DNA of 12,850 bases from Thalassiosira profunda (Eukaryota; Bacillariophyta; Thalassiosirophyceae; Thalassiosirales; Thalassiosiraceae), in assembly GCA_036939355.1 (NCBI GenBank), contig JALLAP010000446.1:1-12850 (forward strand), written 5' to 3'. The position numbers were made by a program, and so were the translations under genes. A model generated the notes under the pieces. That model saw only the letters and a list, made by a program, of their open reading frames with translations, ran no database searches and was not told where the DNA came from. This document shows, piece by piece, positions 1 through 12,850 of this stretch (positions are counted from its first letter, which is position 1; every line of letters starts with the position of its first letter).

Positions 1-195
1 TTGTCGGAGAGGTCGAGCTCCTCGCAGCAGAGGGGGCATATTTCGTTCTGGAATAGAGGGGGGTGGTGCGCGAGGAAGGGTGAGTGGGATCGAAACGCAA
101 GCTTTTGTTGCAAAGGGTAAAGGCCGTAATCAGGCCGCAGACCGCCGCCGCGGCGAGACATGACGACCCCTAGGACTCACCTCATCATCGCTCAT
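1..195 (-). CDS. NOT4/CNOT4-like RING-finger E3 ligase, N-terminal exons (partial, leaves window)
   Basis: On the minus strand an ATG at 195-193 opens a short exon encoding MSDDE (195-181), followed by a GTGAGT donor. An acceptor (CTCTATTCCAG) joins in phase 0 to an exon at 47-1 that reads NEICPLCCEELDLSD and runs off the window. CPLC followed by EELDLSD is the start of the unusual C4C4 RING of NOT4/CNOT4, the ubiquitin ligase subunit of the cytoplasmic CCR4-NOT complex in mRNA decay and translation quality control; the rest of the RING lies outside. Reading through the intron meets TGA at 132-130, so splicing is needed. An in-frame upstream ATG at 351 would add 52 residues, but the start at 195 has a purine at -3 and gives the short acidic N-terminus common before this RING. 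Only 20 residues are visible, so another CPLC-type RING protein is possible. The gene lies head-to-head with the retrotransposon. Confidence 0.7.
48..180 (-). other. Spliceosomal intron of the NOT4-like gene
   Basis: The intron is 133 nt long and phase 0. Its donor is GTGAGT (180-175) directly after GAG. Its acceptor is a pyrimidine-rich CCACCCCCCTCTATTCCAG ending at 48. Branch-point candidates matching YTNAY are CTCAC with A at 81, about 33 nt from the acceptor, and CTGAT with A at 130. The joined exons give a RING start, which supports the splice call. This is direct sequence evidence for a eukaryotic host. Confidence 0.72.
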
Positions 196-554
196 CGCGG
201 GGGTGGAAGGCCGCTGGAATCGGCTAATAGAGCACCAGCCGTGGGGAAGTCTGGCGGCTGCTGGTTGCAGTTGTGAAAATGACGGAATTTTGGGAATTTT
301 GCTGGCAAAAGTTAGGTGTCCCAATTGGCGTGGACAATCTTGGGACAACATTCCAGAAGCGGACAGACGACAATCTGAGAAGAGGTTAAGGGAAGCAACG
401 CAGCTTTGGCAGAGAGGATGGATACAATCGGCTCATGTGGGGTTCGGTCAGAGTGCATGGTTCGATTGATACATTATTATTGTTTGTTTGATAGGGGTAG
501 GTTCAGGTGAAGAGTATAAAGCACGTAGCGTAGTCCGTAAGTAGGCTCTCAACC
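196..554. other. Intergenic region between divergent NOT4-like gene and retrotransposon
   Basis: About 360 bases without a supportable gene. The 88-codon ORF at 203-469 on the + strand has no recognisable motif and overlaps the expected leader of the minus-strand gene, so it is not called. The region should hold the NOT4-like promoter and the 5' end of the retrotransposon, but no target-site duplication or sharp composition change fixes the junction. A T/A-rich patch at about 467-490 and a TATAAA at 515-520 are the only visible landmarks. Confidence 0.5.
515..520 (+). promoter_or_regulatory. TATA-box-like element upstream of ORF1
   Basis: TATAAA within GAGTATAAAGCAC, about 150 nt upstream of the ORF1 ATG. 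If used, transcription would start near 545 and include the short uORF at 555. LINEs usually need an internal promoter, so this may instead be host sequence or a chance match. The call rests on the hexamer alone. Confidence 0.25.
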
Positions 555-572
555 ATGGCGTCCGCGCCGTAG
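555..572 (+). promoter_or_regulatory. Minimal uORF (MASAP) ending in three tandem TAG stops
   Basis: ATG GCG TCC GCG CCG TAG, in a strong AACCATGG context, followed directly by two more in-frame TAG codons (573-578). It is the only ATG I find between the TATA-like element and the ORF1 start. The next 90 nt are A/C-rich with no ATG. In a scanning model ribosomes would translate five codons, stop and reinitiate at 669, damping ORF1 output. That role is inference. Confidence 0.4.
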
Positions 573-668
573 TAGTAGCCAGCAGATCGGACCACAGCGA
601 CCACTAAGAAGTCACCCACAACCCATCCCAACCACTAGCCATCACTATTGCAAGCAGTACGGCGAAAA

Positions 669-3600
669 ATGACCAACGACAAGCAGAGATTTGCCTCCAG
701 AAAGGGAGACAAGCGGCGGACCACCCCCCAGGGCCATGGAGGGCGAGGACGCGGGCGAGGGCGCGGACGCGACCGCAGCCTAAGCCGGACCAAACCCCGA
801 GGACGATCGTCATCGGTCACCAGGGGACCGGGCTACCAAGGAGGCGGAGCGAATCAGCGACGCACAGAGGGGACGCAAGCACCACCTGCACCACATGCAC
901 CACATGCCGATGGTGCACGTGCAAGTGCTGCTGGACCCTCCGTCCATGACCTTATCGGACCGCCCGTCCCTAATAACGGAGCAGAACAGTCAAATCGACA
1001 GGGGGGGCGGGGGAGCGCGCAGGACGGGCCACCGCCGCCGCCGCCCCGGCAACCACCCAAAAATAACGACGATACAAATAACGAGACGCACGCCAACGCA
1101 GCAGGAGGACCCCTTCCCCATAGGGAGGGAATCCACAACGCCAGCGGGGGACACGGCGAGCACGCCGAGAGCGTACCTGGCGGGGGACATGGGAATAACT
1201 ACCACGGACAGCATGTACAGGGACATTACCACCAATATCCCCATCACGGGGGGAACGGAGGGAATGACACGTATACGCATGGACAATTTGGCATCCCACG
1301 AGGCACCCTCCAGTATGAAGCGACATACGGGGGGATGGGCATCAGCTATGGGGGAATCCCCGCGGCCCAGCCCTACCCGCAGCTCGGCCCGCCGCCTCCC
1401 ATGCAAGGTTACGAACCAGCACTGGGAGGCACATATGGGGGATACCCCCAATACCCCCAAGCAGCGGGATGGAACCATCACCAGCCGACGAATCATTACC
1501 AGCACCCCCCACCTAACAACCAAGGGGAGCACCTACCGCACCCCGCCCATCACGGAGGCCACCACGAGGAACAGCAGCAAAAGCCAACTGACCAACGAGG
1601 AGACGTTAGTGGAGAGGCGCAGAGTTCTCAGACGATGATCACTCCTGAACAAAAGTCCAAGAAGAACGAAGACGAGGGCAGCAGCAAGACCATCCTCAGC
1701 TCCCATGGGCACGTAGAAGTTGTCGAACCAACGGCATCCATGGCGAGACTGGCGCGAGGGCTGCCAAGCCGGAACGACGAAATGACAGGAAAGTCCTTCA
1801 ATGGACCAGAGGGAACGATACTACTGATCTCATTTGTGGCGGAGGCGATGGTGCGGCGTCACAATGAAAGCAACCACGAGAATGGGGGTACGAGAACTGG
1901 ACTGGATCTAACGAAAGCGGCATCCACAGCGTGGAGGAAACCGACACACGCTCTGTTGCGAGCCCTACAGCAACCCGAAGTGCTTAGGGAACTGCACCTC
2001 GAAGCAGTCAGCTCGAATTGGCCAGACACCACAGAGCAATCGATTGTAGTGCGACAGTGGGCAGATCTGGCAGGCAGCAACAAAGTGCAGAAGGGGTTCC
2101 ACGCTCTCGGGAAAGTCCAACTCACCAACATTCTGCTCAACATAGCCTCTCGACACTACCCAGGGAATGGGAAAGAGATCAAAGACGCAGCTATGGAGAT
2201 GGAAGTCGACGACCTGAGGGAGCTCATTGCCAGGCCCGGGCCACTTCTGGCCTTGAAACAGAGAGTCGGCGCAACGTGGAAGTTCGTGCACCCTCGAGTG
2301 GTGCGAATGGAGGACGTGCGCGCCCTGACTGCGAAGCAAGCAGCAGAGGATGAAGACGACGATGGCGAGCTGCCAAAGGAGAATGACGTACCTGACAACG
2401 ACGCTGACAGCAAGCTGCAGGAGAAGGAGTACAGCTGCACCATCGAGGGACTCCCCACCGAGCTAGACCTCGACGTGGTGCCAGAGGAGGTAGAAACGAG
2501 CGGCAGCGTGAAGACGAATGCGCTCCCAGCGAGCGAACTATTGACGAGAGTGCCCTACAGAGTAGACGAGGAGCTAATGGACAACCCCTTTCATCGCAAG
2601 ACGATCGAAGTCGAGGGAGATAGCAAAACGCTTCGACTCTACGGCACGGACGCTAGGAGAATGCAGCTGGTTGGACCCATGATCGCAGCCCATATCCAGA
2701 AGTGGGCCAAACCGCTTGAGTTCAGCCCTGCATTTCGGATGAGCGAAGAGCTCCCAGAGCAGAACGAAGAGACGATCTCATCAGCAGTCATCTCGGCGAT
2801 GGACAAGGAACCATGGCGCGAAATGGGCATCGAACTGAGAGAATTCCAGCTGATGGATGACGAATCTAAGCGCAGAGCAGTGCAAGCCAATCTGCCATCG
2901 GTCCTCTCAAAGCTCACACCAGCGAGAGTCCAGCAAGCGACGACGCTGGTATCGAGCATGCGCAAGACGGAGCTAGACGATTTGATGCAGCGCGAGGGAT
3001 TTGAAGCCTTCCTGGATAAGCTGGGAGCAGCTCCCAATCGGCATCGCCATGGGAAAGGGCGACACGGCTCCAACGTCGAGTACCATCACAGGCTCAAAAT
3101 CTCAGCGAGACGCCAAGACGACCAGCGGATGGACTTGCCGGGCACCCCAGGCGACTACATTCGACAATGGGTGGGGAGAATCTGGCAGGTGACGTGGCAC
3201 CACAGGCACACCCTCATGATCGCAGGAGCAGACGCGAACGACTCTTCCCTCCCAGCGATAGACCTCAACAGCGCTGCGATTCCAAGTGGCGACGACCTCA
3301 ACGCTTATGCGTACGAAGTCGAGTACGACGACGATCGTAACACCTTCATCTCGGCCGAGTTCTACATGATCTCGTCCTACGAGCCATTGGGGCAGCGACC
3401 GGCCAACATGCTGATTGGGAATGGGGACGACTACTTCTCGAAATACCGCGAGTGGTACGGCGGATCCTCCACCAGCGTCGCTCAAATGGAACGCAAGCCC
3501 ACAGGCCTGACGCCATGCATCGTCTTTGCGAATAGCACAGCTGACGCAGACGAGACCAGAGGATTCCTCGAAGTGGTCGAGCGGTTTGGTGTTGAAGGGC

Positions 3601-6395
3601 AGCTTGTCAGGAGGGTGGCCCATCTCGCGTGGGCTACAGCTCGTTGCAGCGTTGGTAAATACAAGCGTGTGGCCATCATGTGCTTGCTCGCAGAAGACGA
3701 ACACCACAGCCAGATCCACGACGCATTCCGCAGGACCTATCGCACCAACGCGCCGCTCAGAGACTTTCCAGTCACAGGCGAGTGGGAGGCAGCAGTAGTC
3801 GACCACGACGACAGGGACTCGGAATGGAGCCGAGCTGAGATCAACACGCGACATGTCGAATATGGACATCAGCACATCTTCTCTGAACTTCGTGGGCTGC
3901 ACGGCATCGATCTTGGAGACGTGCGCCCAAAGACGAACTCTCTTGTGGCTGGACCGTCTATTGACACTCAGAACACGCTATCGATTGTCCAGATTATCAT
4001 TACCGCCACCTGGACAGAGGAAGATGGAGAAACAGTGGTCGAGTCGCCAGTCACATCAGTCACCCACCACTCTAATGGAGGGTACCGATTATATGCGCAC
4101 ATTGACGATGGAGAGGCACTCATTACACTCACCCGGTCTCTGGTCGACTTCCTCCCATCCATGCTCAAAGGGGTGCGAGGGGCAGGGAGAGTCAGAGTGA
4201 AGGCGGACACAACGGGCGCACGGAGAAGAATAGACGAACGCAGGGACGCAATGGCGCACCAGTCGCCAGATGCCAAACCAGAGCCGTCTCGAAAAAAGAA
4301 GGGCAGACGAGATGGCAGCCTGGAACGACGCTTGCCACCAGTGGAAGAGGCAGAGAGGACCAACTATTATGGTCTGCTACGCGATGCTGCAGACGAGCAA
4401 GAGGACCACGCTGGCGAGGACGAGACCGATCGGACTGCCATCGAGGACCCAACCGACCAGAGCAGTGGGGCCCCAGACCAAAGGGCTGGATTCGACGAGC
4501 AACATCGAGATAGCGTCGACCATCAACCAACGGAGCAGAGTGCAGAGCGGCAGGAGAGCCCAGGTGGACAGCCCCCTGCCGATTCAACCCTGGGCCAGGG
4601 CCGCCCAAGTGGGGAGCGCCCCCAAGGGCTCTTTGGAACATCGGATTTGTTGATGCTGTATACAGACAAGACGAAGGAGAACGTAGCCCAGGAGCTCGAG
4701 ATCGCCCAGCTCAAACAGCAGATAGAGACGCTGCAGAATGACCAGACGCAGAATACTACAGCCACTCCAGGGCTGGAGACAACGATACTCGAGCAAGGAC
4801 GGACGCTGATCACGAGAGTGGAGTCGACGCTCACCTCGAGCAGCGACAAGCAGCTGAAGGAAATTGTCGACTCGATGAAACGACTGGAAGCCATGCACCA
4901 GGAGCAGAATGCATCATTGGTAGCCATGCACCAAATGCACCTCGAGAAGGTCGAAGCCAATTACGACGCAAAAGTGGAGGCGATGCAGGCCAACCTCGAA
5001 CGCATCTCCCAGAAAATGCTGGGGATGGAGTACGCGTACTCTACAACCATGCACATGGTAGGAGGCGAAGTGCTGCTGAATCGAGCACAGAGCGACAGAA
5101 TGCTGATTCGGTTCGACCACCTCCACCACACGGTCCGTAGAATCCAGCGACGTGAGCCTCCCAACCCAGACGAGGAGCAAGCGTGGGAGACGAGAGTGGA
5201 TGCAGCAGACGCGCAGTATGCCTATGCGTATGAGTTGCGCCGCGATGGGCGTATAATGGACGAGATAAAGGAGGACATCCAACAGGTGGTTGCAGAAAGG
5301 TGCAGCAAGGAAGGCATCCCACTGCCTGATCTCAGCTTCGACATCCCAGCCAGTCAGGGAGTGCGAGCAGAGGGCAACGCTGCTCGCCAGCACGCTGTCC
5401 GACCCGATCCTGCTCACGACGAAAACGAGCCTGGAGTCGGACCAGATGAGACCAGCGCCGCTGAACAGCCTGCAGTCGAAGCCGCGCCGTCCCTGTACAG
5501 ACGTAAGACGAGCGATACCATGGTGGGAGCCCCACTCAGAGTGCAAGGAGAGGGCGAAACGGCAGAGGGAGACGATGACCCAGATCCCCCTTCGACTAAG
5601 GGACCCGCGACGCAAGTGCAGACCCCCCCGATCGAGCCAGAAGGGACGTCACCCCCTCCCACCCCTGCCAAGACGCCCAGGGAGAACTTGTCAGCTAAGC
5701 TGACTGCAGCGAGCAAGCCAACTGACACAGTCGACCTCACTGCGCTGCCCACATCTGATGCGCAAATCTTCGAGGAGCCAGAGGACGAAACCCAGACTAT
5801 ATTGGGCACGCAGGAGTCTAACGACGAGGATCGGAAGAGCATGCCGCCACCGCAGCCCAAACCTTCTTCTCTGGAGGCCAAGCCAGACGAGAACGTCCAC
5901 TCTTCATCTCCATCCTCTTCGTCCTCCTCTACCTCCAGCGATGGCCCTTACGAAGTGCGTAAGGGCAAATGCGGCAAGACTGGATGTAAACGAACCGGAC
6001 CTCTCAGCAAGTGCGAGATATGCGAAGCCTGCTTCCACGAAGAATGCTTGCACAAGGATGGCGAGAGTGCGGCGGACACGTGCCTGAATTGCGCGCAGGA
6101 GCTGACCCGCAAGCGAAACGAAAAGGCCGAATCGAACGAGGCAGAAGCTACCAGCCCAGACGTGAGCTCGTCACCCACTGAGTCGAGCGAGGAGGAGGAG
6201 AACGACTCGGACGCGTATGATCCAATGGTGGAAGAGGCGAAGAGGAGGCAGTCGAAGCCAACGAAGGGACCCAAAGCGAAAGCCAAAGCACCAGAGGAGG
6301 AATTGAGGCGGAGCGTTCGCCTAACGAGAGACAAAACCAAGCCCAAGGGTCAACCGACGGGCAAGGGCGCCCCCAACCAAAAGAAAAATGAATAG
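669..6395 (+). CDS. Retrotransposon ORF1 protein (gag-like RNA-binding, PHD finger), 1908 aa
   Basis: Start ATG at 669 (context AAAAATGA, purine at -3); an in-frame TAG at 636-638 limits extension, and the TTG at 648 is not needed. Visible order: RG-rich box (residues 24-34), Gly/His/Pro/Tyr/Gln-rich disordered region (about 146-308), a probably folded segment (about 350-555), an acidic linker, a large unassigned middle (about 640-1195), a Lys/Arg and Gln/Glu-rich linker, a coiled coil (about 1329-1455), Pro/Glu/Ser-rich sequence, a Ser run, a PHD-like C4HC3 finger (1768-1808), an acidic Ser stretch and a basic tail. By analogy with other LINEs it should bind and package element RNA, probably as multimers through the coiled coil. 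At 1908 residues it is several times longer than usual ORF1 proteins (about 300-800). The last 8 nt overlap ORF2. That it belongs to the element is strongly supported by the overlap; its biochemical role is inferred. Confidence 0.88.
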   Translation: MTNDKQRFASRKGDKRRTTPQGHGGRGRGRGRGRDRSLSRTKPRGRSSSVTRGPGYQGGGANQRRTEGTQAPPAPHAPHADGARASAAGPSVHDLIGPPVPNNGAEQSNRQGGRGSAQDGPPPPPPRQPPKNNDDTNNETHANAAGGPLPHREGIHNASGGHGEHAESVPGGGHGNNYHGQHVQGHYHQYPHHGGNGGNDTYTHGQFGIPRGTLQYEATYGGMGISYGGIPAAQPYPQLGPPPPMQGYEPALGGTYGGYPQYPQAAGWNHHQPTNHYQHPPPNNQGEHLPHPAHHGGHHEEQQQKPTDQRGDVSGEAQSSQTMITPEQKSKKNEDEGSSKTILSSHGHVEVVEPTASMARLARGLPSRNDEMTGKSFNGPEGTILLISFVAEAMVRRHNESNHENGGTRTGLDLTKAASTAWRKPTHALLRALQQPEVLRELHLEAVSSNWPDTTEQSIVVRQWADLAGSNKVQKGFHALGKVQLTNILLNIASRHYPGNGKEIKDAAMEMEVDDLRELIARPGPLLALKQRVGATWKFVHPRVVRMEDVRALTAKQAAEDEDDDGELPKENDVPDNDADSKLQEKEYSCTIEGLPTELDLDVVPEEVETSGSVKTNALPASELLTRVPYRVDEELMDNPFHRKTIEVEGDSKTLRLYGTDARRMQLVGPMIAAHIQKWAKPLEFSPAFRMSEELPEQNEETISSAVISAMDKEPWREMGIELREFQLMDDESKRRAVQANLPSVLSKLTPARVQQATTLVSSMRKTELDDLMQREGFEAFLDKLGAAPNRHRHGKGRHGSNVEYHHRLKISARRQDDQRMDLPGTPGDYIRQWVGRIWQVTWHHRHTLMIAGADANDSSLPAIDLNSAAIPSGDDLNAYAYEVEYDDDRNTFISAEFYMISSYEPLGQRPANMLIGNGDDYFSKYREWYGGSSTSVAQMERKPTGLTPCIVFANSTADADETRGFLEVVERFGVEGQLVRRVAHLAWATARCSVGKYKRVAIMCLLAEDEHHSQIHDAFRRTYRTNAPLRDFPVTGEWEAAVVDHDDRDSEWSRAEINTRHVEYGHQHIFSELRGLHGIDLGDVRPKTNSLVAGPSIDTQNTLSIVQIIITATWTEEDGETVVESPVTSVTHHSNGGYRLYAHIDDGEALITLTRSLVDFLPSMLKGVRGAGRVRVKADTTGARRRIDERRDAMAHQSPDAKPEPSRKKKGRRDGSLERRLPPVEEAERTNYYGLLRDAADEQEDHAGEDETDRTAIEDPTDQSSGAPDQRAGFDEQHRDSVDHQPTEQSAERQESPGGQPPADSTLGQGRPSGERPQGLFGTSDLLMLYTDKTKENVAQELEIAQLKQQIETLQNDQTQNTTATPGLETTILEQGRTLITRVESTLTSSSDKQLKEIVDSMKRLEAMHQEQNASLVAMHQMHLEKVEANYDAKVEAMQANLERISQKMLGMEYAYSTTMHMVGGEVLLNRAQSDRMLIRFDHLHHTVRRIQRREPPNPDEEQAWETRVDAADAQYAYAYELRRDGRIMDEIKEDIQQVVAERCSKEGIPLPDLSFDIPASQGVRAEGNAARQHAVRPDPAHDENEPGVGPDETSAAEQPAVEAAPSLYRRKTSDTMVGAPLRVQGEGETAEGDDDPDPPSTKGPATQVQTPPIEPEGTSPPPTPAKTPRENLSAKLTAASKPTDTVDLTALPTSDAQIFEEPEDETQTILGTQESNDEDRKSMPPPQPKPSSLEAKPDENVHSSSPSSSSSSTSSDGPYEVRKGKCGKTGCKRTGPLSKCEICEACFHEECLHKDGESAADTCLNCAQELTRKRNEKAESNEAEATSPDVSSSPTESSEEEENDSDAYDPMVEEAKRRQSKPTKGPKAKAKAPEEELRRSVRLTRDKTKPKGQPTGKGAPNQKKNE
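738..770 (+). other. RG-rich RNA-binding box in ORF1
   Basis: Residues 24-34 alternate Gly and Arg (GGRGRGRGRGR), followed by a basic Arg/Ser-rich segment to about residue 50. RG/RGG boxes bind RNA, often G-quadruplexes, and are methylated by arginine methyltransferases. Here it is the most obvious nucleic-acid-binding feature of ORF1's N-terminus. Composition is seen directly; RNA binding is inferred. Confidence 0.6.
1105..1590 (+). other. Low-complexity Gly/His/Pro/Tyr/Gln-rich (prion-like) region of ORF1
   Basis: About 160 residues (146-308) built almost entirely of G, H, P, Y, Q and N, with short motifs such as GGHGEH, HYHQYPHH, YGGYPQYPQ and PAHHGGHH. It has few charged or aliphatic residues and is almost certainly disordered. 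With the RG box it resembles proteins that form condensates; many LINE ORF1 proteins condense with their RNA. Long spurious ORFs appear in other frames here because the G/C-rich codons lack stops. Confidence 0.65.
2590..4260 (+). other. Large unassigned region in middle of ORF1, probably folded
   Basis: Residues about 640-1195 have mixed hydrophobic patterning, aromatic residues and few repeats, unlike the disordered flanks, so one or more folded domains are likely. Conspicuous strings are YIRQWVGRIWQVTWHHRHT, EFYMISSYEPLGQRPANM and YRTNAPLRDFPVTGEWEAAV. The segment from about 3118 to 4180 alternates beta-like stretches with helices. I recognise no RRM, CCHC knuckle, esterase or transposase signature. 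It could be a lineage-specific gag or RNA-chaperone domain, but that is only a guess. Confidence 0.45.
4653..5030 (+). other. Coiled-coil region in ORF1
   Basis: Residues about 1329-1455 show long heptad-like runs rich in L, M, I, E, Q and K, for example VAQELEIAQLKQQIETLQND and later repeats around MKRLEAMHQEQNASLVAMHQ. A less regular Thr/Ser stretch interrupts it near residue 1365. Coiled coils trimerise ORF1 proteins in vertebrate L1; multimerisation here is inferred. Confidence 0.6.
5970..6092 (+). other. PHD-like C4HC3 zinc finger in ORF1
   Basis: Residues 1768-1808 carry C-x4-C-x8-C-x2-C-x4-H-x2-C-x11-C-x2-C, with the core SKCEICEACFHEECL matching the C..C....H..C centre of PHD fingers, including the aromatic before His. 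PHD fingers usually read histone H3 tails. They have been described in ORF1 of CR1-like non-LTR elements, so one here is plausible. The first pair has a four-residue gap rather than the usual two. It is preceded by a Ser-rich run and followed by acidic Ser clusters and a basic tail. Chromatin targeting or RNA binding are both possible roles. Confidence 0.65.
6388..6395 (+). promoter_or_regulatory. ORF1/ORF2 stop-start overlap (ATGAATAG)
   Basis: The ORF2 ATG (6388-6390) lies 5 nt before the ORF1 TAG (6393-6395), in the +1 frame, inside the A-rich stretch AAAAGAAAAATGAATAG. Such tight overlaps support translational coupling by termination-reinitiation, as shown for the silkworm LINE SART1. Many ATGs upstream in ORF1 make leaky scanning to ORF2 implausible. 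The ORF2 frame is open from 6325 (TAA at 6322-6324), so a +1 frameshift fusion within 6325-6395 cannot be excluded. Confidence 0.6.
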
Positions 6396-9300
6396 TGCTA
6401 AGATATCTGGGAATGGAAGGGGGGCGAAACGAAGAGAGAAGAAACGATGGACGCAGCTGAAGCTGTACGGGTACGCCACCCAAGATGACAAGGCGCAACG
6501 ATACAAGAACATCCCACCAGCGGGCGACCCCTTAGTGGAACGCCAGGATGGCGATGGAATTTTACGACAGAGCTACCAGAACATTTACGGCACCAACCTC
6601 GGCCAACACCTCGATGTGGCAACCGAAATCGAAGTCCTGCTGGAACTGGGCATCGACCTTATGGGAATGTCAGAAACCAACAGGCCATGGACTGCGAAAA
6701 ACAAAGCTCTTTACGATATGATGATGGAGAACATCTTCGATGGCACGGTGCGAACGACGTACGCATCTGCCAAGGCAGATTATAACTGCAATTACCAACC
6801 AGGAGGCAACCTCCTTACAGTGAATGGACCAGCGGCAGGGCGAGTCAAGAAGATGGTCAGCGACGAGCTGGGCAGATTTTGCTATGCACTGCTGCGAGGG
6901 AAACGCGACGAAGGCCTCGCTGTCATTACAGCTTATCGATGCTGTCGAAGCACTGGCCCCACTACAGCGTGGGCCAGGGAGCGAAGCGCACTGCGAGCTA
7001 AAGGGCAAGTCAACCCTAACCCCAGGAAGCAGATCCTCACCGACCTGGCAGAGACCATCCAAAACATGCGCACGCTGGGATATCGACCAATCGTGATGAT
7101 GGACTGCAATGGAGACCCATGGCATGAAAAGGATCCAGATGTCGACCTCCTCCGCTTCATGAATGATGCGAACTTGATTGACATCTACCATGAACGCCAT
7201 GGCGACCACCCCCGCACTCACATGCGAGGTACGAAATGCATTGATCGTATTCTCATCGATCCTGCACTTGAACCCTGCGTCAGGAGAGTGGGATATTTGG
7301 GAACCCACGAGGGAGCACCATCAGATCACGTGCTTGCGTACATCGACTGGGACGAAACGATGCTCTTCCAAGGAATCATCAACCGCCCATCGACTACCCA
7401 CACGCGCGAATTTCGTCTGCAGCAAACCGACAAAGTCAAGGGATTCCTGGAGGAGTTGATACCAGCGACGCAGAACTGGGAGCTGCAAAGACGCACCTTC
7501 GAGCTCATGGAGAAATTTGCTTCACGAGGACGAACGCCTCGCAACATGCGAGAGTACTGCACGATATATGGCAAGTTCATCGAAGTAGCACGCACTGTGC
7601 TGGAGAAGGTTGGAAGGCGAAAGTACGCCTACGAACGCTCCCCAGACTTGACGACAGCCGGGCGATGCCTGGGAGTGGTGTTGCAGACAATGGACTGCCA
7701 GACGAGGGGAGCCCCAATTACGCCAGCACTGCGAAAGAGAGCAGGCCTTACAGACCTCGACGTGGACGAGCTGTATAGCAAGAGCAACCGGCAACTACGA
7801 AAAGAGGCGAGGGCAATGCGAACGAACCTGCGCAAAGTGCAATATAGAGCAGCAGAGAAACGCATCGAGTGGCTCGAGCAGATAGCCCAGAACAGAGCAC
7901 GAGCGAAAGGCAACCCTGAATGGGCCAACGAATTAAAGGAGATGAAGAAAACGACGAAGGATAGAGCAATGAACAGGAAGCTTAATGGCGTGACCAAAGG
8001 AGCCAGAGGGACACTGGATCGAGTTCAAGTGCCCACCTCAGATTGGTACTATTCAGACTCTGCTCTCGAGATCTACCATTACGACAAGGGCTCGTTTGAG
8101 GCCCACCCATCAGATGGCAGCGGGAGATTCTTCCGCCACCACGTGATCAAGGTGCTACCAAACGACGCGGTGCTAGTGGCAGTGAGAGTGGACGAGATAG
8201 CTAACAGAATTGAGGTGGTTGGAACGCTCCCTCGCCCAGCAGAGATGTGGAAGAACGTGACGGCGCCAACCGAAATCGAGGCGATTATGCTGGAACGCAA
8301 CAAGAGGCATCTGCAGCAAACCGAGCTGGAAGGTAGCGCGAGCCTCCAACCGCCCCTCCCCGAACTACGCGAAGACTTTGGACTCTCGCCAGCAGCAGAC
8401 AGGGTGCTAGCAGGAGAACCCCTCACGGACATGGAGATTCCAGACACTCTCGCGACCTGGCTTCGAATGATCAAGCGAACGGACAAGGAGAAGGAAGTGC
8501 CGCCATGTGTTGGAGCGATCGATCTCGCAGAGTTCCAACTCATGTTCAAGACGGCAGACGAAAATACAGCCAGCCACCCAAACGCTCTCAATTACACTGT
8601 GTGGAAGGCCATAGCACGAAGCCGATTCCTGTCGAGCTTCATGAGCATCCTGTTCAGCCTACCTTTCATGTATGGGTTCTCAAACCCCTACTGGGAATTC
8701 ATGACCGACTTCATGCTGGAGAAGAAGAAGGGAGACGTGCGAATACACAGACTGCGACTGATTGGATTGGTGTGCCCAGAGCTGAATACCTGCCTCAAGT
8801 TCTTCTCGAAGCAGATCCTACGAAACTACGAATCGTGCAACCCAATAACGACGCAGCACGGGTGCAGGCCCAATCGGCAGGCGATCGACTTGGCCATCAT
8901 CAAATGCTGCACATTCGAAACTGCCAGGATGGCATACAGGGACATGGCGTCAATATTACACGACCTCGCCGCCTGCTTCGACCGGATATGGCACGAAATA
9001 ACGAACGTGCTCCTGCAGAAGTATGGAGTCAGCAAGAACGTGCTACGAGCCAGATCACTCGCCATTTCGCGGATGAAACGCCACGTGTGCACTGGGTTGG
9101 GAGTCTCTGAGGCGCACTACAGCCAAAAGGCAGATGAGCCCAATATTGGAGGCGAAATCCAGGGGAAAGCAGACGTGCCTGCGGCGTACGTTATCCAGAG
9201 CGACACGGTCCTGCGAGCCCACGACGAACTCGCCCCAGGCCTCCACCTCGACAGCCCTTGGCTTGGACGTTGCATCGAGCACACGAGCCTTGCGTATGTG

Positions 9301-12300
9301 GACGACACAGACGGCCATGTCACTGACCCTCCAATGGCACCTCGATCGATCCCAAACCTGGTTGCTAAGCTCGAGGAGAGTGCGCAGATTTGGAACGACG
9401 TGCAGAATTGGACGGGCCAGTCCATTGCGTATCACAAAGTCAACTGGCAGATACTCGCATGGCAATTGGTGAAGGGAGAGCTGCAACTCGTGCACGAGAC
9501 AGACGAACAATTGGTGATGAAGGATGGAAAGGGAGGAGTGGCAGTGATCAACTTCCTGGCACCCAACGAGCCGAACGTCGGATTGGGGTACAGGCTCTGC
9601 CCAGATGGGAACCAGAAGCCTCACCACGAAGCCACACTCGACGGCCTGCGGCAGGTGTGCAACTCGATTAAGGGCGCATACCTCACAGAGGAGGAGGCGC
9701 ATACAGCACTCTACCGCCGCGTCATCCCCAAACTGTCCTACGCCCTCCACTTGACGAGCTGGAACGAAAAGGAATGCAAACCATACAACACAATGTTGAG
9801 GCAAACATTCCTGCCCATCCTTCGTATGAATCGCAACATGCCCAACGCAGTTATATTTGGGCCGCTCGAATTCGGAGGGATGGCCTTCCCGGACTTAATG
9901 ACGCTGCAGGACCAGGTTCAGATACCATACCTCCTAAAAGAGGCTCGCTGGGACAGAGACGTCGCCAACGCGATGCTCACGACGATTGACAATGTCCAAT
10001 TGAGAACAGGTTTTGTGCGACCGATCATGGAGCACACAGACCTACCCATCGACTATGTCGGCAACAGCTTCTTCCTCAGTGTACGCAGGAGGCTTGGTGA
10101 AATCGAAGGATCGATGTGGCTCGAGGACGCATGGACGCCCAAACTCCAGCGCATTGGAGACGAGAGCATAATGGAACGCCTGGTCGCGTCTGGACTCTTC
10201 TCGAAGGCAACGCTGAGGAAAGCAAACTACGTTCGCCTCTACTTGCGTGTGGTAACGATCGCAGACATGGCGAGCCCCTCTGGAGATTACATCCCAGATG
10301 GGCACTTCGATGGCAGCTGGCAGGCAGGATCTGATCTCTTATGGCCAGACCTGCCTCAACCGCCGACAGCCTACTTCAAGCTTTTCAAAGCGTGCATTCG
10401 ACGAACATTCGGAGTCTTCTCCCCAGAACACCAGCGATTGTCCCACAGCATGGCACTTGACCAACCGCTGGGCAAGTGGCACCCTGTCGAACGCAATACC
10501 TGGTGGTACTGCTATAGAACAGAGACGAGCCTCATCTTTCGAACGCTCGAAGGCGAGCTGCGCGAGCACCGGCAACGAGTGCCAGGCACTGGGTTCTACC
10601 ATTTCCAGCGCGTGATCGACGCACTGCCAATCGAGAGCCACCCAGTGCAATATCGCCAGGTGGGCAAGTCGATATGGACGCAGAGACCCCTCGATCTGTC
10701 AGTGGAATTGAACGAATCCAAACCCCCTCCGGGGCATCTGATGGTGAATACAATCACAGACCCCCAACGAGAAGTAATCACGCTGGGCAGCGACGGATCG
10801 GTGCACATCAACGAGCAGGTATCGTCAGCAGCGTGGTTGGGAACCAGTGGCTCCGGCGACGAGCACTTCATTGCGACAGTCCTGCTCGACGACGTTGACA
10901 TCACCAATGGGACGTCGTCGTATAGAGCAGAGGCCAATGGAGTGTACCGCAGCCTCGAGCACGTCGACTATTTGGGCATGACGCCCAAAGAGGTGGAACA
11001 ATGGTGCGACAACGAGCAGGTTGTGATCAACAGCGAGACGCCTCTTCAGTCCCCAAAGCAGATGCTGCAAGCACACGCCGACATGATCCTCGCCATCCAC
11101 CATCTCAGAAATCGAGTCGACTTCCATGTCACGTGCCGTCACGTCTATGGGCACCAGGACACGAAGGGCAAGCAGGAGGCGAAGGAGGAGAAGGAGCCCA
11201 AACGTCAACAGGGAATGGTCATCGATTGCGAGGAGGAGAAAGCGATGCGCCAGCCAGCCGACGCCAACCCCCAAACCCTCGACGAGCTCGACGACCGCTC
11301 CTCCCCTGACAGTAGTTACAGCGGAGGGAGCGATACGATACAGTCGGAGGACATGTGGGACGACGACGAGGCCTCGACCGCAGAGAACAGCGTGAGCACC
11401 AGCAGCGTGGAGTCAGACAGCGATGCAGAGGGTGACGACAAAAAGCGCCTCCAGGACGAACTGGCACCCGGCGAGCAGCAAGTGATTGACCTCATTGCTG
11501 GCAGTATGGCCAAACCGCGACCTCTCAATCCATACGAGAGAATCATGGAAAAGCCCAAGCCACTCAGCAAGGAGGCCCAAATCAACGTGGCATGCGATGC
11601 AGTGGCCAGCGAGACGACGAGGCTTCGCCTCGAGCAGGACACGATGCCAGCTCTCCCAGCGACGCAACGACTCCCACTGCCAGGGCAGAAGGCGCAGCTG
11701 ATCATAGGAGGGAGGTACGTGACCTCGAAATGGAAGCGAGAACTGCATCGTGCCAGAAACTCTGAGCCAATGCGAGAGTACATGAGGCAGAAGTATGAGT
11801 GGACTGACGACGAAATCGACTCTGTTAATTGGGCATCGATCGGAAGGGTACGAAGGCGGCTGACTTACGTTAAGCAAATGCAGACGTGCAAGACGATGCA
11901 CGGCTGGCTGCCCACAATGCACATGCGCCGCCACATCAGTGGCGTTTCACAGTGCCCGGGATGCAAACACAAGGACGAGACCATCGACCACATGCTCAGA
12001 TGCCCGCACGAGCTGATGAAAAAGCGACGAAAGGAAACGATAGCATTGCTACGCAAGAAAGGCATCGCCTCGAAGATCCCGAAGGTCGTGGTTAGGGCCT
12101 TCTGCGAAGTCTTCCGAAAATACTTCAGAGGAGACGATGCATTCGTTTCCCCGTGCTACGCACGCGATATACGAGAAGCCATCGAAGACCAGATGAAACT
12201 GGGCATGAAGTTCATGTTTCGAGGCTTCCTTTCGAAAAAGTGGGAAGCTGCAATTGCAGCGACAGGAGCAGAGCACCCTCGACGGAAAGTGGACGCCCTG

Positions 12301-12660
12301 CAGCGCATGATTTGGGACACAATAGTGGACCCACTGTGGACAGCACGCAACGATATCCTCCATCGGCAGCAGAATCAGTTCGATGCAGCGGAGGAGGAGC
12401 GGATGGCGGAGCGAATGCAGTGGTTTATGCAGCACAGACAGGACGTTTTGGCAGCCTCTGATCAAACCCTTGCAGGGTACGACGAGGCCACCATACACAG
12501 CCTCAGTCGCCGCGCGAAGCGCGAGTGGCTTCGGCAACTCGACGTCGCCAAGGCGGCGTACGAGAGGGAGCGAAACACCGCGGTGGAGCATCGCGACTCT
12601 ATCCTGCGGTACCTCGTGCCAGTCCGCCCACAGATACCAGCCAATGAGGCCGCCGAGTAG
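6388..12660 (+). CDS. Retrotransposon ORF2 polyprotein: EEP endonuclease, reverse transcriptase, RNase H, zinc knuckle (2090 aa)
   Basis: The catalytic protein of the element, expected to nick chromosomal DNA and copy element RNA from the nick (target-primed reverse transcription). Domain order: basic NLS-like start (RGAKRREKKR, residues 11-20); EEP endonuclease (about 55-320); charged helical linker (about 395-545); unassigned segment with the RN..HLQQ motif (about 545-720); RT (about 784-1030) with thumb and connector to about 1450; RNase H (about 1460-1745) holding a large insert; zinc knuckle (1856-1872); helical C-terminus with a LWTARNDILH motif near 1983. Catalytic residues are present in all three enzymes. 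At 2090 residues it is long for a LINE ORF2 (about 900-1300), due to the linkers, the RNase H insert and the C-terminal tail. The start is the ATG overlapping the ORF1 stop. The stop TAG is at 12658. Confidence 0.93.
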   Translation: MNSAKISGNGRGAKRREKKRWTQLKLYGYATQDDKAQRYKNIPPAGDPLVERQDGDGILRQSYQNIYGTNLGQHLDVATEIEVLLELGIDLMGMSETNRPWTAKNKALYDMMMENIFDGTVRTTYASAKADYNCNYQPGGNLLTVNGPAAGRVKKMVSDELGRFCYALLRGKRDEGLAVITAYRCCRSTGPTTAWARERSALRAKGQVNPNPRKQILTDLAETIQNMRTLGYRPIVMMDCNGDPWHEKDPDVDLLRFMNDANLIDIYHERHGDHPRTHMRGTKCIDRILIDPALEPCVRRVGYLGTHEGAPSDHVLAYIDWDETMLFQGIINRPSTTHTREFRLQQTDKVKGFLEELIPATQNWELQRRTFELMEKFASRGRTPRNMREYCTIYGKFIEVARTVLEKVGRRKYAYERSPDLTTAGRCLGVVLQTMDCQTRGAPITPALRKRAGLTDLDVDELYSKSNRQLRKEARAMRTNLRKVQYRAAEKRIEWLEQIAQNRARAKGNPEWANELKEMKKTTKDRAMNRKLNGVTKGARGTLDRVQVPTSDWYYSDSALEIYHYDKGSFEAHPSDGSGRFFRHHVIKVLPNDAVLVAVRVDEIANRIEVVGTLPRPAEMWKNVTAPTEIEAIMLERNKRHLQQTELEGSASLQPPLPELREDFGLSPAADRVLAGEPLTDMEIPDTLATWLRMIKRTDKEKEVPPCVGAIDLAEFQLMFKTADENTASHPNALNYTVWKAIARSRFLSSFMSILFSLPFMYGFSNPYWEFMTDFMLEKKKGDVRIHRLRLIGLVCPELNTCLKFFSKQILRNYESCNPITTQHGCRPNRQAIDLAIIKCCTFETARMAYRDMASILHDLAACFDRIWHEITNVLLQKYGVSKNVLRARSLAISRMKRHVCTGLGVSEAHYSQKADEPNIGGEIQGKADVPAAYVIQSDTVLRAHDELAPGLHLDSPWLGRCIEHTSLAYVDDTDGHVTDPPMAPRSIPNLVAKLEESAQIWNDVQNWTGQSIAYHKVNWQILAWQLVKGELQLVHETDEQLVMKDGKGGVAVINFLAPNEPNVGLGYRLCPDGNQKPHHEATLDGLRQVCNSIKGAYLTEEEAHTALYRRVIPKLSYALHLTSWNEKECKPYNTMLRQTFLPILRMNRNMPNAVIFGPLEFGGMAFPDLMTLQDQVQIPYLLKEARWDRDVANAMLTTIDNVQLRTGFVRPIMEHTDLPIDYVGNSFFLSVRRRLGEIEGSMWLEDAWTPKLQRIGDESIMERLVASGLFSKATLRKANYVRLYLRVVTIADMASPSGDYIPDGHFDGSWQAGSDLLWPDLPQPPTAYFKLFKACIRRTFGVFSPEHQRLSHSMALDQPLGKWHPVERNTWWYCYRTETSLIFRTLEGELREHRQRVPGTGFYHFQRVIDALPIESHPVQYRQVGKSIWTQRPLDLSVELNESKPPPGHLMVNTITDPQREVITLGSDGSVHINEQVSSAAWLGTSGSGDEHFIATVLLDDVDITNGTSSYRAEANGVYRSLEHVDYLGMTPKEVEQWCDNEQVVINSETPLQSPKQMLQAHADMILAIHHLRNRVDFHVTCRHVYGHQDTKGKQEAKEEKEPKRQQGMVIDCEEEKAMRQPADANPQTLDELDDRSSPDSSYSGGSDTIQSEDMWDDDEASTAENSVSTSSVESDSDAEGDDKKRLQDELAPGEQQVIDLIAGSMAKPRPLNPYERIMEKPKPLSKEAQINVACDAVASETTRLRLEQDTMPALPATQRLPLPGQKAQLIIGGRYVTSKWKRELHRARNSEPMREYMRQKYEWTDDEIDSVNWASIGRVRRRLTYVKQMQTCKTMHGWLPTMHMRRHISGVSQCPGCKHKDETIDHMLRCPHELMKKRRKETIALLRKKGIASKIPKVVVRAFCEVFRKYFRGDDAFVSPCYARDIREAIEDQMKLGMKFMFRGFLSKKWEAAIAATGAEHPRRKVDALQRMIWDTIVDPLWTARNDILHRQQNQFDAAEEERMAERMQWFMQHRQDVLAASDQTLAGYDEATIHSLSRRAKREWLRQLDVAKAAYERERNTAVEHRDSILRYLVPVRPQIPANEAAE
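6550..7347 (+). other. EEP (APE-like) endonuclease domain of ORF2
   Basis: Residues about 55-320 show the EEP motif series: SYQN (N65), GMSE with E96 as the metal ligand, GGNLLTVNG, TAYRCC, VMMDCNGDPW (D239, N241), THMRGTKCIDRIL (D286) and PSDH (D313, H314). These are the acidic and histidine residues of the APE1/DNase I fold that LINEs use to nick target DNA. All key positions are intact. The PNPRKQIL segment before the D-x-N motif recalls algal/stramenopile LINE endonucleases (from memory). Confidence 0.88.
8737..9477 (+). other. Reverse transcriptase domain of ORF2
   Basis: Residues about 784-1030. The fingers motif RLRLIGLVCPELNTCLKFF is followed by QHGCRPNRQAID, motif A HDLAACFDRI (catalytic D859), a RMKRHVCTGLGVSEAHY helix, motif B GGEIQGKADVPAA and motif C AYVDDTD (catalytic D972, D973). 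The three catalytic Asp are present, so the enzyme looks active. Motif B, QGKADVPA, departs from the common QGDPLSP of most LINEs. A thumb-like region with FGPLEFGGMAFPDL follows at about 1157-1170. Confidence 0.93.
10765..11622 (+). other. RNase H domain of ORF2, split by an insertion
   Basis: Residues about 1460-1745. The motifs are GSDGS (D1469), YRAEA (E1515), CDNEQVV (D1541), HVYGHQD (H1589) and NVACDAVA (D1737), the full DEDD plus His set. Normally only a few residues separate the GH motif from the final N..AD; here about 140 residues intervene. RNase H in I-like LINEs degrades the RNA strand after cDNA synthesis. Activity is expected only if the insert loops out. Confidence 0.82.
11161..11577 (+). 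other. Charged, Ser/Asp/Glu-rich insertion in the RNase H domain
   Basis: Residues 1592-1730: first Lys/Glu-rich (KGKQEAKEEKEPKRQQ), then an acidic Ser/Asp stretch with DELDDRSSPDSSYSGGS and MWDDDEASTAENSVSTSS, then a more ordinary segment with PLNPYERIMEKPKPLSKEA. It is probably disordered and phosphorylatable (many S/T followed by acidic residues). It has no stop, GT-AG intron signature or codon change that marks it as recent. Confidence 0.7.
11953..12003 (+). other. C-terminal CCHC zinc knuckle (zf-RVT type) of ORF2
   Basis: C1856-x2-C1859-x8-H1868-x3-C1872 (CPGCKHKDETIDHMLRC), preceded by the conserved KTMHGWLPTMHMRRH. This is the zinc-binding segment found after RNase H or RT in many plant and protist LINEs and is thought to bind nucleic acid during integration. 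Confidence 0.8.
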
Positions 12661-12850
12661 AGCGGCCTCCCACCCCCCCCCCAACCGAGGGGGCAAGTGA
12701 TGGTTTTAACCAGCCTCACCTTACCATCAGACCACGGCTATAGTGGCAAAAGCCTTGTGCATGCCAACAGCGCCTCCCAACCGGGAGCCCGAGTATGCGC
12801 GGGGAGTGCGATCTATGTCAAGCACCATACAGACGTTGGTGTGATCGTCC
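12661..12850 (+). other. 3' UTR of the retrotransposon with small hairpins
   Basis: 190 bases after the ORF2 stop. It has a C10 run (12673-12682) that can pair with G5 (12689-12693), a TGGTT/AACCA hairpin (12701-12712), CCAC/GTGG (12732-12746) and CTCCC/GGGAG (12774-12787). There is no AATAAA and no terminal repeat. The first and last hairpins share an AACC-containing loop. LINE RTs often recognise 3' UTR stem-loops, but here the structures are short. Where the element ends is unknown. Confidence 0.4.

Follow-up and report, generated by a model that had tools for sequence, protein, structure and literature searches.

Among diatoms, Thalassiosira pseudonana has RTE-like retrotransposons without long terminal repeats (non-LTR; excerpt of PMC2806351), and Chaetoceros tenuissimus holds more reverse transcriptase (RT) genes than two other diatoms, together with a target-site duplication of the long interspersed nuclear element (LINE) type around a virus-like fragment (excerpt of PMC8613185). 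The RNase H of oomycete and plant L1 is treated in PMC5348765, PHD fingers are present in the first open reading frame (ORF1) of CR1 and L2 (PMC4120745) and, in stringent LINEs, the ORF2 protein binds a 3' stem-loop (PMC4176376), each as given in excerpts of these papers. Here we describe contig C445, which in its entirety is the stretch of 12,850 bp analysed (the window) and which belongs to an assembly of 21.8 Mb in 1366 contigs. The window very probably holds an autonomous, coding-intact and bicistronic giant LINE (non-LTR retrotransposon) of ~12.4 kb, from the nuclear genome of a eukaryote that is probably a small alga; judged from its sequence, this copy is nearly complete and apparently undamaged. 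Its identity as a LINE follows from the fold, the motifs, the truncated copies and a common structured 3' end. The finding of the earlier note is upheld, as that of a real giant LINE with recognisable relatives.

The coding features of the element are arranged as follows.

669-6395, plus strand: ORF1, 1908 codons from the first ATG or 1915 from an upstream TTG, presumed to encode an RNA-binding coat protein
2805-4208, plus strand: best conserved core of ORF1, residues 713-1180, 31% identity to the sister element on contig C1254
5970-6092, plus strand: C-terminal Cys/His finger of ORF1, residues 1768-1808, with PHD-like spacing (C4HC3)
6388-6395, plus strand: overlap of ORF1 and ORF2, 8 nt, ATGAATAG
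6388-12660, plus strand: ORF2, 2090 aa, with endonuclease, reverse transcriptase, RNase H and zinc knuckle
6565-7347, plus strand: APE-type endonuclease, residues ~60-320, with N65, E96, D239, N241, D286, D313 and H314
8260-10110, plus strand: reverse transcriptase and thumb, residues ~625-1241, from motifs, model and structural matches
10765-11622, plus strand: RNase H with D-E-D-H-D, residues ~1460-1745
11953-12003, plus strand: zinc knuckle, C1856-C1859-H1868-C1872 (zf-RVT, E 0.051)

The two uninterrupted giant frames claimed from the first inspection are confirmed. Neither has an internal stop, the last in-frame stop ahead of ORF1 lies at 636, and the log10 probability of staying open, given the base composition, is -28.3 for ORF1 and -36.1 for ORF2. 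Chance cannot give such frames, since 50 mononucleotide shuffles of the window produced open stretches of 322 codons at most. Long terminal repeats were not found among the 20 largest of at least 60 direct-repeat families in the window, whose 3' end is incomplete; the window also gave no Rfam match at the gathering score and no tRNA. We also weighed a virus or LTR element and rejected it, given the lack of long terminal repeats in these 20 families and of any Pfam match above cut-off in either ORF.

ORF2 has 29 database homologues (21-46% identical), of which 28 were aligned with the window in 29 rows, P0022 (1329 aa) being left out. The motifs had been called complete, and this is borne out by the alignment: the endonuclease residues listed above, D859, Q925-G926, D972-D973 and K1017 of the RT, and D1469, E1515, D1541, H1589 and D1737 of the RNase H, which we take to be catalytic, are identical in 29/29 rows, while the four positions of the zinc knuckle are kept in 28, 29, 28 and 28 of them. 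The endonuclease has no Pfam match in the window itself and Exo_endo_phos is above cut-off in the relatives P0027 and P0028; the RNase H carries a 142-aa acidic insert (~11158-11583), and RVT_3 was found in P0011 and P0013. The predicted RT structure is confident (predicted local distance difference test, pLDDT, 86.6; predicted template modelling score, pTM, 0.85) and Foldseek puts R2 or human L1 ORF2p at each of its top 14 ranks (E 2.1e-17 to 1.9e-14). Ranked by structural Z, the top 13 are again all R2 or L1 ORF2p (26.4-19.5), with group II intron RTs coming next at 18.3, and a PDB profile match to R2 was obtained with E 4.5e-4. On this model the RT is of LINE type. The Pfam family RVT_1 was nevertheless not detected in the window at E<=1 or in 4/4 relatives scanned at E<=0.1, and it is missing from the precomputed Pfam domains of 29/29 homologues. 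As the Pfam RT model misses this RT, pipelines based on that model will overlook the lineage, which is present in T. pseudonana and in many other public contigs.

ORF2 is also informative as to size. Since 28/29 homologues measure 1826-2154 aa, an ORF2 of ~2,000 codons is normal in this lineage and the window copy is not exceptional within it; the exceptional size that had been noted holds when the element is compared with usual LINEs. The homologue from T. pseudonana CCMP1335 (P0021, 1850 aa, 42% identity over 97% of the query region) is named predicted protein, and the homologues bear only this name or that of reverse transcriptase domain-containing. Relatives were also sought in viral contigs, where 6 and 41 pattern stretches were examined and none encodes one. 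In a quick tree of 33 rows, which comprises the homologues and LINEs of the same genome only and in which long branches were flagged, the window pairs with C1254 (Shimodaira-Hasegawa-like approximate likelihood-ratio test, SH-aLRT, 100), and this pair joins 20 other homologues (99). T. pseudonana stands further out in the same group and three other LINEs of the same genome lie outside, where the root was set.

We tentatively propose, at somewhat below even likelihood, that these elements form a deep, separate lineage of LINEs in diatoms and their relatives. It would have its own kind of ORF1 (~1,900 residues, fast-evolving, of undescribed fold), ORF1 and ORF2 expressed from one ~12.4-kb RNA, a five-codon upstream open reading frame (uORF), termination-reinitiation, and an RNA selected for reverse transcription by the two structured parts of its 3' end, which runs out into microsatellite tails. 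Alternatively, the clade or family could be one already catalogued, for instance a stramenopile family in Repbase, and new only in its long ORF1. We consider this less likely than not, as RVT_1 was not detected in the proteins surveyed, as the excerpted literature on non-LTR elements of T. pseudonana mentions only RTE-like ones, and as no description of a giant diatom LINE was found in the open-access literature by searches that partly concerned Ulp1, ORF1 types and 3' stem-loops. In its favour, the T. pseudonana homologue is in public databases, one source terming it reverse transcriptase domain-containing, and the order endonuclease-RT-RNase H-knuckle is that of known I-type LINEs. The idea of a poorly described giant lineage is supported in that no described family was matched, in a comparison that did not extend to Repbase and Dfam.

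The ORF1 product may, by analogy with the ORF1 proteins of other LINEs, be an RNA-binding coat protein. Its N-terminus is rich in G, P, Q, N and H, with RGR repeats, while the central region is of ordinary composition. ORF1 of C1254 has 1931 aa and is 29-31% identical. The finger reads C-x4-C-x8-C-x2-C-x4-H-x2-C-x11-C-x2-C, and its cysteines are common to C1254 ORF1, where the His is replaced by Cys; the resemblance to C4HC3 is one of cysteine spacing only, the Pfam PHD family being absent from both ORF1s at E<=1. ORF1 has no Pfam domain above cut-off, and no homologue at E<=0.001 was found in two database searches, in which the 7977 and 7989 best candidates were scored and in which relatives without common 5-residue words are missed. 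A model of the core from two sequences (pLDDT 48.5, pTM 0.31) gives no usable fold, the first ~70 residues being helical at higher confidence. Elsewhere in the genome, a 200-aa open frame (C872:2703-3179, L019) matches ORF1 residues 525-688 (28%, E 6e-9) and is perhaps the remnant of a further family.

C1254 (12,057 bp) carries a second element of the same layout, the only other near-full-length one in the assembly. Its ORF2 is 62% (residues 16-1465), 67% (1465-1608) and 62% (1681-2009) identical to that of the window. Across 1452 codons, the two differ at 32% of first, 21% of second and 57% of third positions, and the method of Nei and Gojobori (NG86) gives a nonsynonymous distance (dN) of 0.32, a synonymous distance (dS) of 2.2, which is saturated, and a dN/dS of ~0.15. 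Going by these substitutions, both lineages are ancient and under constraint. A DNA search of the same genome with 648-12850 returned only C1254 (65-68%, with one 42-nt piece at 83%) and C685, in which 128 nt (C685:927-1054, plus strand) are 94% identical to the window 3' untranslated region (UTR), with 8 transitions, 0 transversions and a Kimura two-parameter (K2P) distance of 0.067. This fragment begins inside the 3' UTR, as expected of a 5'-truncated copy, and further 5'-truncated copies, from a related family, lie on C628, C1035 and C903. On C685 (L018), the truncated copy (927-1118, plus strand) stands tail to tail with a broken minus-strand LINE of another family, and the (TC)n between them is either the tail of one element or a microsatellite target common to both.

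Downstream of ORF2 the window retains the following.

12661-12850, plus strand: 3' UTR, cut by the contig end
12723-12850, plus strand: structured 3' module, with a long helix of 12753-12765 and 12791-12804 and a terminal hairpin at 12815-12848

Relative to the 3' end of the C685 copy, the contig lacks the last ~40-45 nt, breaking off at 12850. Window and C685 differ at 8 positions in this module, 5 of them in predicted helices, where all keep pairing and one pair is changed on both sides. A covariance model built from these two sequences gave one further match in 67,653 bases of loci (C628:664-813, E 0.0035, with rough calibration), directly 3' of an ORF2 remnant that was located by protein similarity (residues 2015-2083, 35% identity, one internal TAG). 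A DNA search with the C628 region then identified C1035 (92%) and C903 (93%), with different start points, together with three pieces of 29-47 nt beyond the module; the covariance model matches C1035 too (E 0.0024), and not the C903 locus. Folded jointly with RNAalifold, the window, C685, C628 and C1035 share 20 pairs, 9 of them changed on both sides, with 80/80 cells paired and a covariation of 0.725 versus 0.382 in shuffled alignments (0/500 reach it) and at most 0.175 in slid ones; these four sequences represent two lineages, and they also served to derive the structure. C685, C628 and C1035 continue with GTACTYTAAMATTTCTRTT followed by TC or TA repeats, which probably constitute the end and tail of the element beyond the window.

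Several observations weigh against an active LINE with a conserved 3' structure. ORF2 of C1254 has one frameshift near residue 1465 and is cut by the contig end, and ORF1 matches no described ORF1 type. As to the fold, 259/500 shuffles reach the two-sequence covariation count, 17/500 and 189/500 reach the four-sequence counts of both-side-changed pairs and of pair types, respectively, and single-sequence folding energies are only 1.2-1.6 standard deviations below those of shuffles. No near-identical full-length copy is assembled in the genome, and no target-site duplication was found: the C685 copy shows no more than a 6-mer, inspection of C1035 by eye revealed none, and the 3' flank of the window is absent from the contig. 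Because near-identical copies are wanting, the recent transposition that had been put forward rests on the intact frames and the 94% identical fragment of C685; likewise, the search for other copies in the host genome yielded a single further near-full-length element, at 62% identity in ORF2. The window contig ends shortly before the common 3' end, so that copies may have been collapsed in the assembly.

A domesticated host locus, whose ORFs are kept by selection after mobility was lost, would account for two intact frames, for the dN/dS of ~0.15 and for the presence of this sequence at a single assembled locus. We judge it very unlikely, as all the mobility enzymes are kept, the endonuclease included, as the window family and a related one have left truncated 3' copies, as the 3' RNA fold is conserved, and as different families occur in one genome and many in databases. 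That the giant size is in part an assembly artefact, with two elements or a host gene and a LINE joined in a fragmented assembly of a sort that often collapses repeats, is barely credible when C1254 independently shows a 1931-aa ORF1 beside an ORF2 of the same family and the ORF2 length agrees with 28/29 homologues.

Returning to the giant LINE, its upstream side consists of the following.

430-668, plus strand: element 5' UTR, with weak to strong similarity to that of C1254
521-580, plus strand: conserved 5' UTR block common to C1254, with the uORF MASAP* at 555-572
1-195, minus strand: start of a NOT4-like host gene, with exon 1 at 195-181 (MSDDE), an intron at 180-48 and exon 2 from 47 (NEICPLCCEELDLSD)

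The 5' end of the element is not sharply placed (about 430-520). In both elements the uORF reads ATG GCG TCC GCG CCN TAG, and ACCATGGCGTCCGCGCCNTAG occurs exactly at 2 places in the whole 21.8 Mb, the window and C1254, and at a third with 2 mismatches, while a backward control gave 2 matches at up to 2 mismatches. The conservation of this block despite the divergence of window and C1254 suggests that it has a function, perhaps in ORF1 translation. A possible splice donor, GTAAGT, stands directly ahead of the uORF in both elements (window 521-572; C1254:11854-11874, minus strand). At the other junction, the ORF2 ATG of C1254 lies 4 nt past the ORF1 stop (TAACACGATG), so that both elements have the close spacing that termination-reinitiation would need. 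We envisage that a single RNA would be made from an internal 5' promoter, with the MASAP uORF tuning ORF1 translation and ORF2 made via termination-reinitiation at the ORF1 stop. The RNA would be coated by the ORF1 protein and its structured 3' end bound by the ORF2 protein, as in the stringent type; the APE domain would nick DNA, the RNA would be copied by target-primed reverse transcription, and RNase H would remove it. The 5'-truncated copies could stem from early stopping, and the microsatellite-like tails from slippage.

The element lies head-to-head with the host gene, whose 133-nt intron has GTGAGT...CAG borders; such an intron-bearing neighbour points to a eukaryotic chromosome. The 20 residues of its start resemble the RING start of NOT4. 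The name is likely rather than proven, since the PDB matches are weak, a Tax1-binding protein (E 0.47) ranking ahead of the NOT4 chains (E 1.3, 1.7 and 3.3).

Two other contigs of the genome drew our attention. One is a plastid-like contig of 77.5 kb (C26; L048, L049, L050) with a bacterial-type 16S-tRNA-Ile-tRNA-Ala-23S operon, secA and a LysR-type regulator, a gene set that presumably fits a red-lineage plastid; it could also be foreign DNA in the assembly. The host itself may be a diatom or close to one. The other (C468; L016:1341-8780, minus strand) carries another LINE with a single 2479-aa ORF, in which an APE-type endonuclease (Pfam E 4e-8), an RVT_1 match just under cut-off (E 5e-6) and a C-terminal Ulp1-type Peptidase_C48 (E 4e-21) were detected. 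In PMC4640811, nematode Utopia and NeSL elements are described with N-terminal Ulp1 domains and, as the excerpt of that paper has them at this end only, the C-terminal arrangement may be new.

If the separate lineage is real, the window element would be among the longest coding-intact LINEs. It places ~12 kb of intact coding sequence in one LINE within a 21.8-Mb assembly. Its uORF, the ORF1/ORF2 coupling and the covarying 3' RNA can be tested for their part in the translation of a very long retroelement RNA and in its selection as a template. Compared with known systems, UnaL2 and zebrafish ZfL2 have a 3' stem-loop that is bound by ORF2 protein (excerpt of PMC4176376), while the structure in the window is larger, derived from four sequences and only putatively recognised. 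P0021 and the 28 other homologues, compared through ORF2 alone, have the same order of endonuclease, RT, RNase H and zinc knuckle. The R2 and human LINE-1 ORF2p structures share the RT and thumb fold of the window model (~490-530 residues, root mean square deviation 3.0-4.3 A, 12-16% identity). A restriction-like endonuclease and a single ORF set R2 apart, and L1 is without RNase H. I-type and other APE LINEs with RNase H are like the window in domain order and in having two ORFs; they are usually ~5-7 kb long, whereas ORF1 of the window, without a Pfam domain above cut-off, takes up 5.7 kb by itself. Finally, Drosophila TART is, like the window element, a LINE of great length (~10-13 kb), but TART sits at telomeres and has a long 3' UTR, while the element in the window is nearly all coding.

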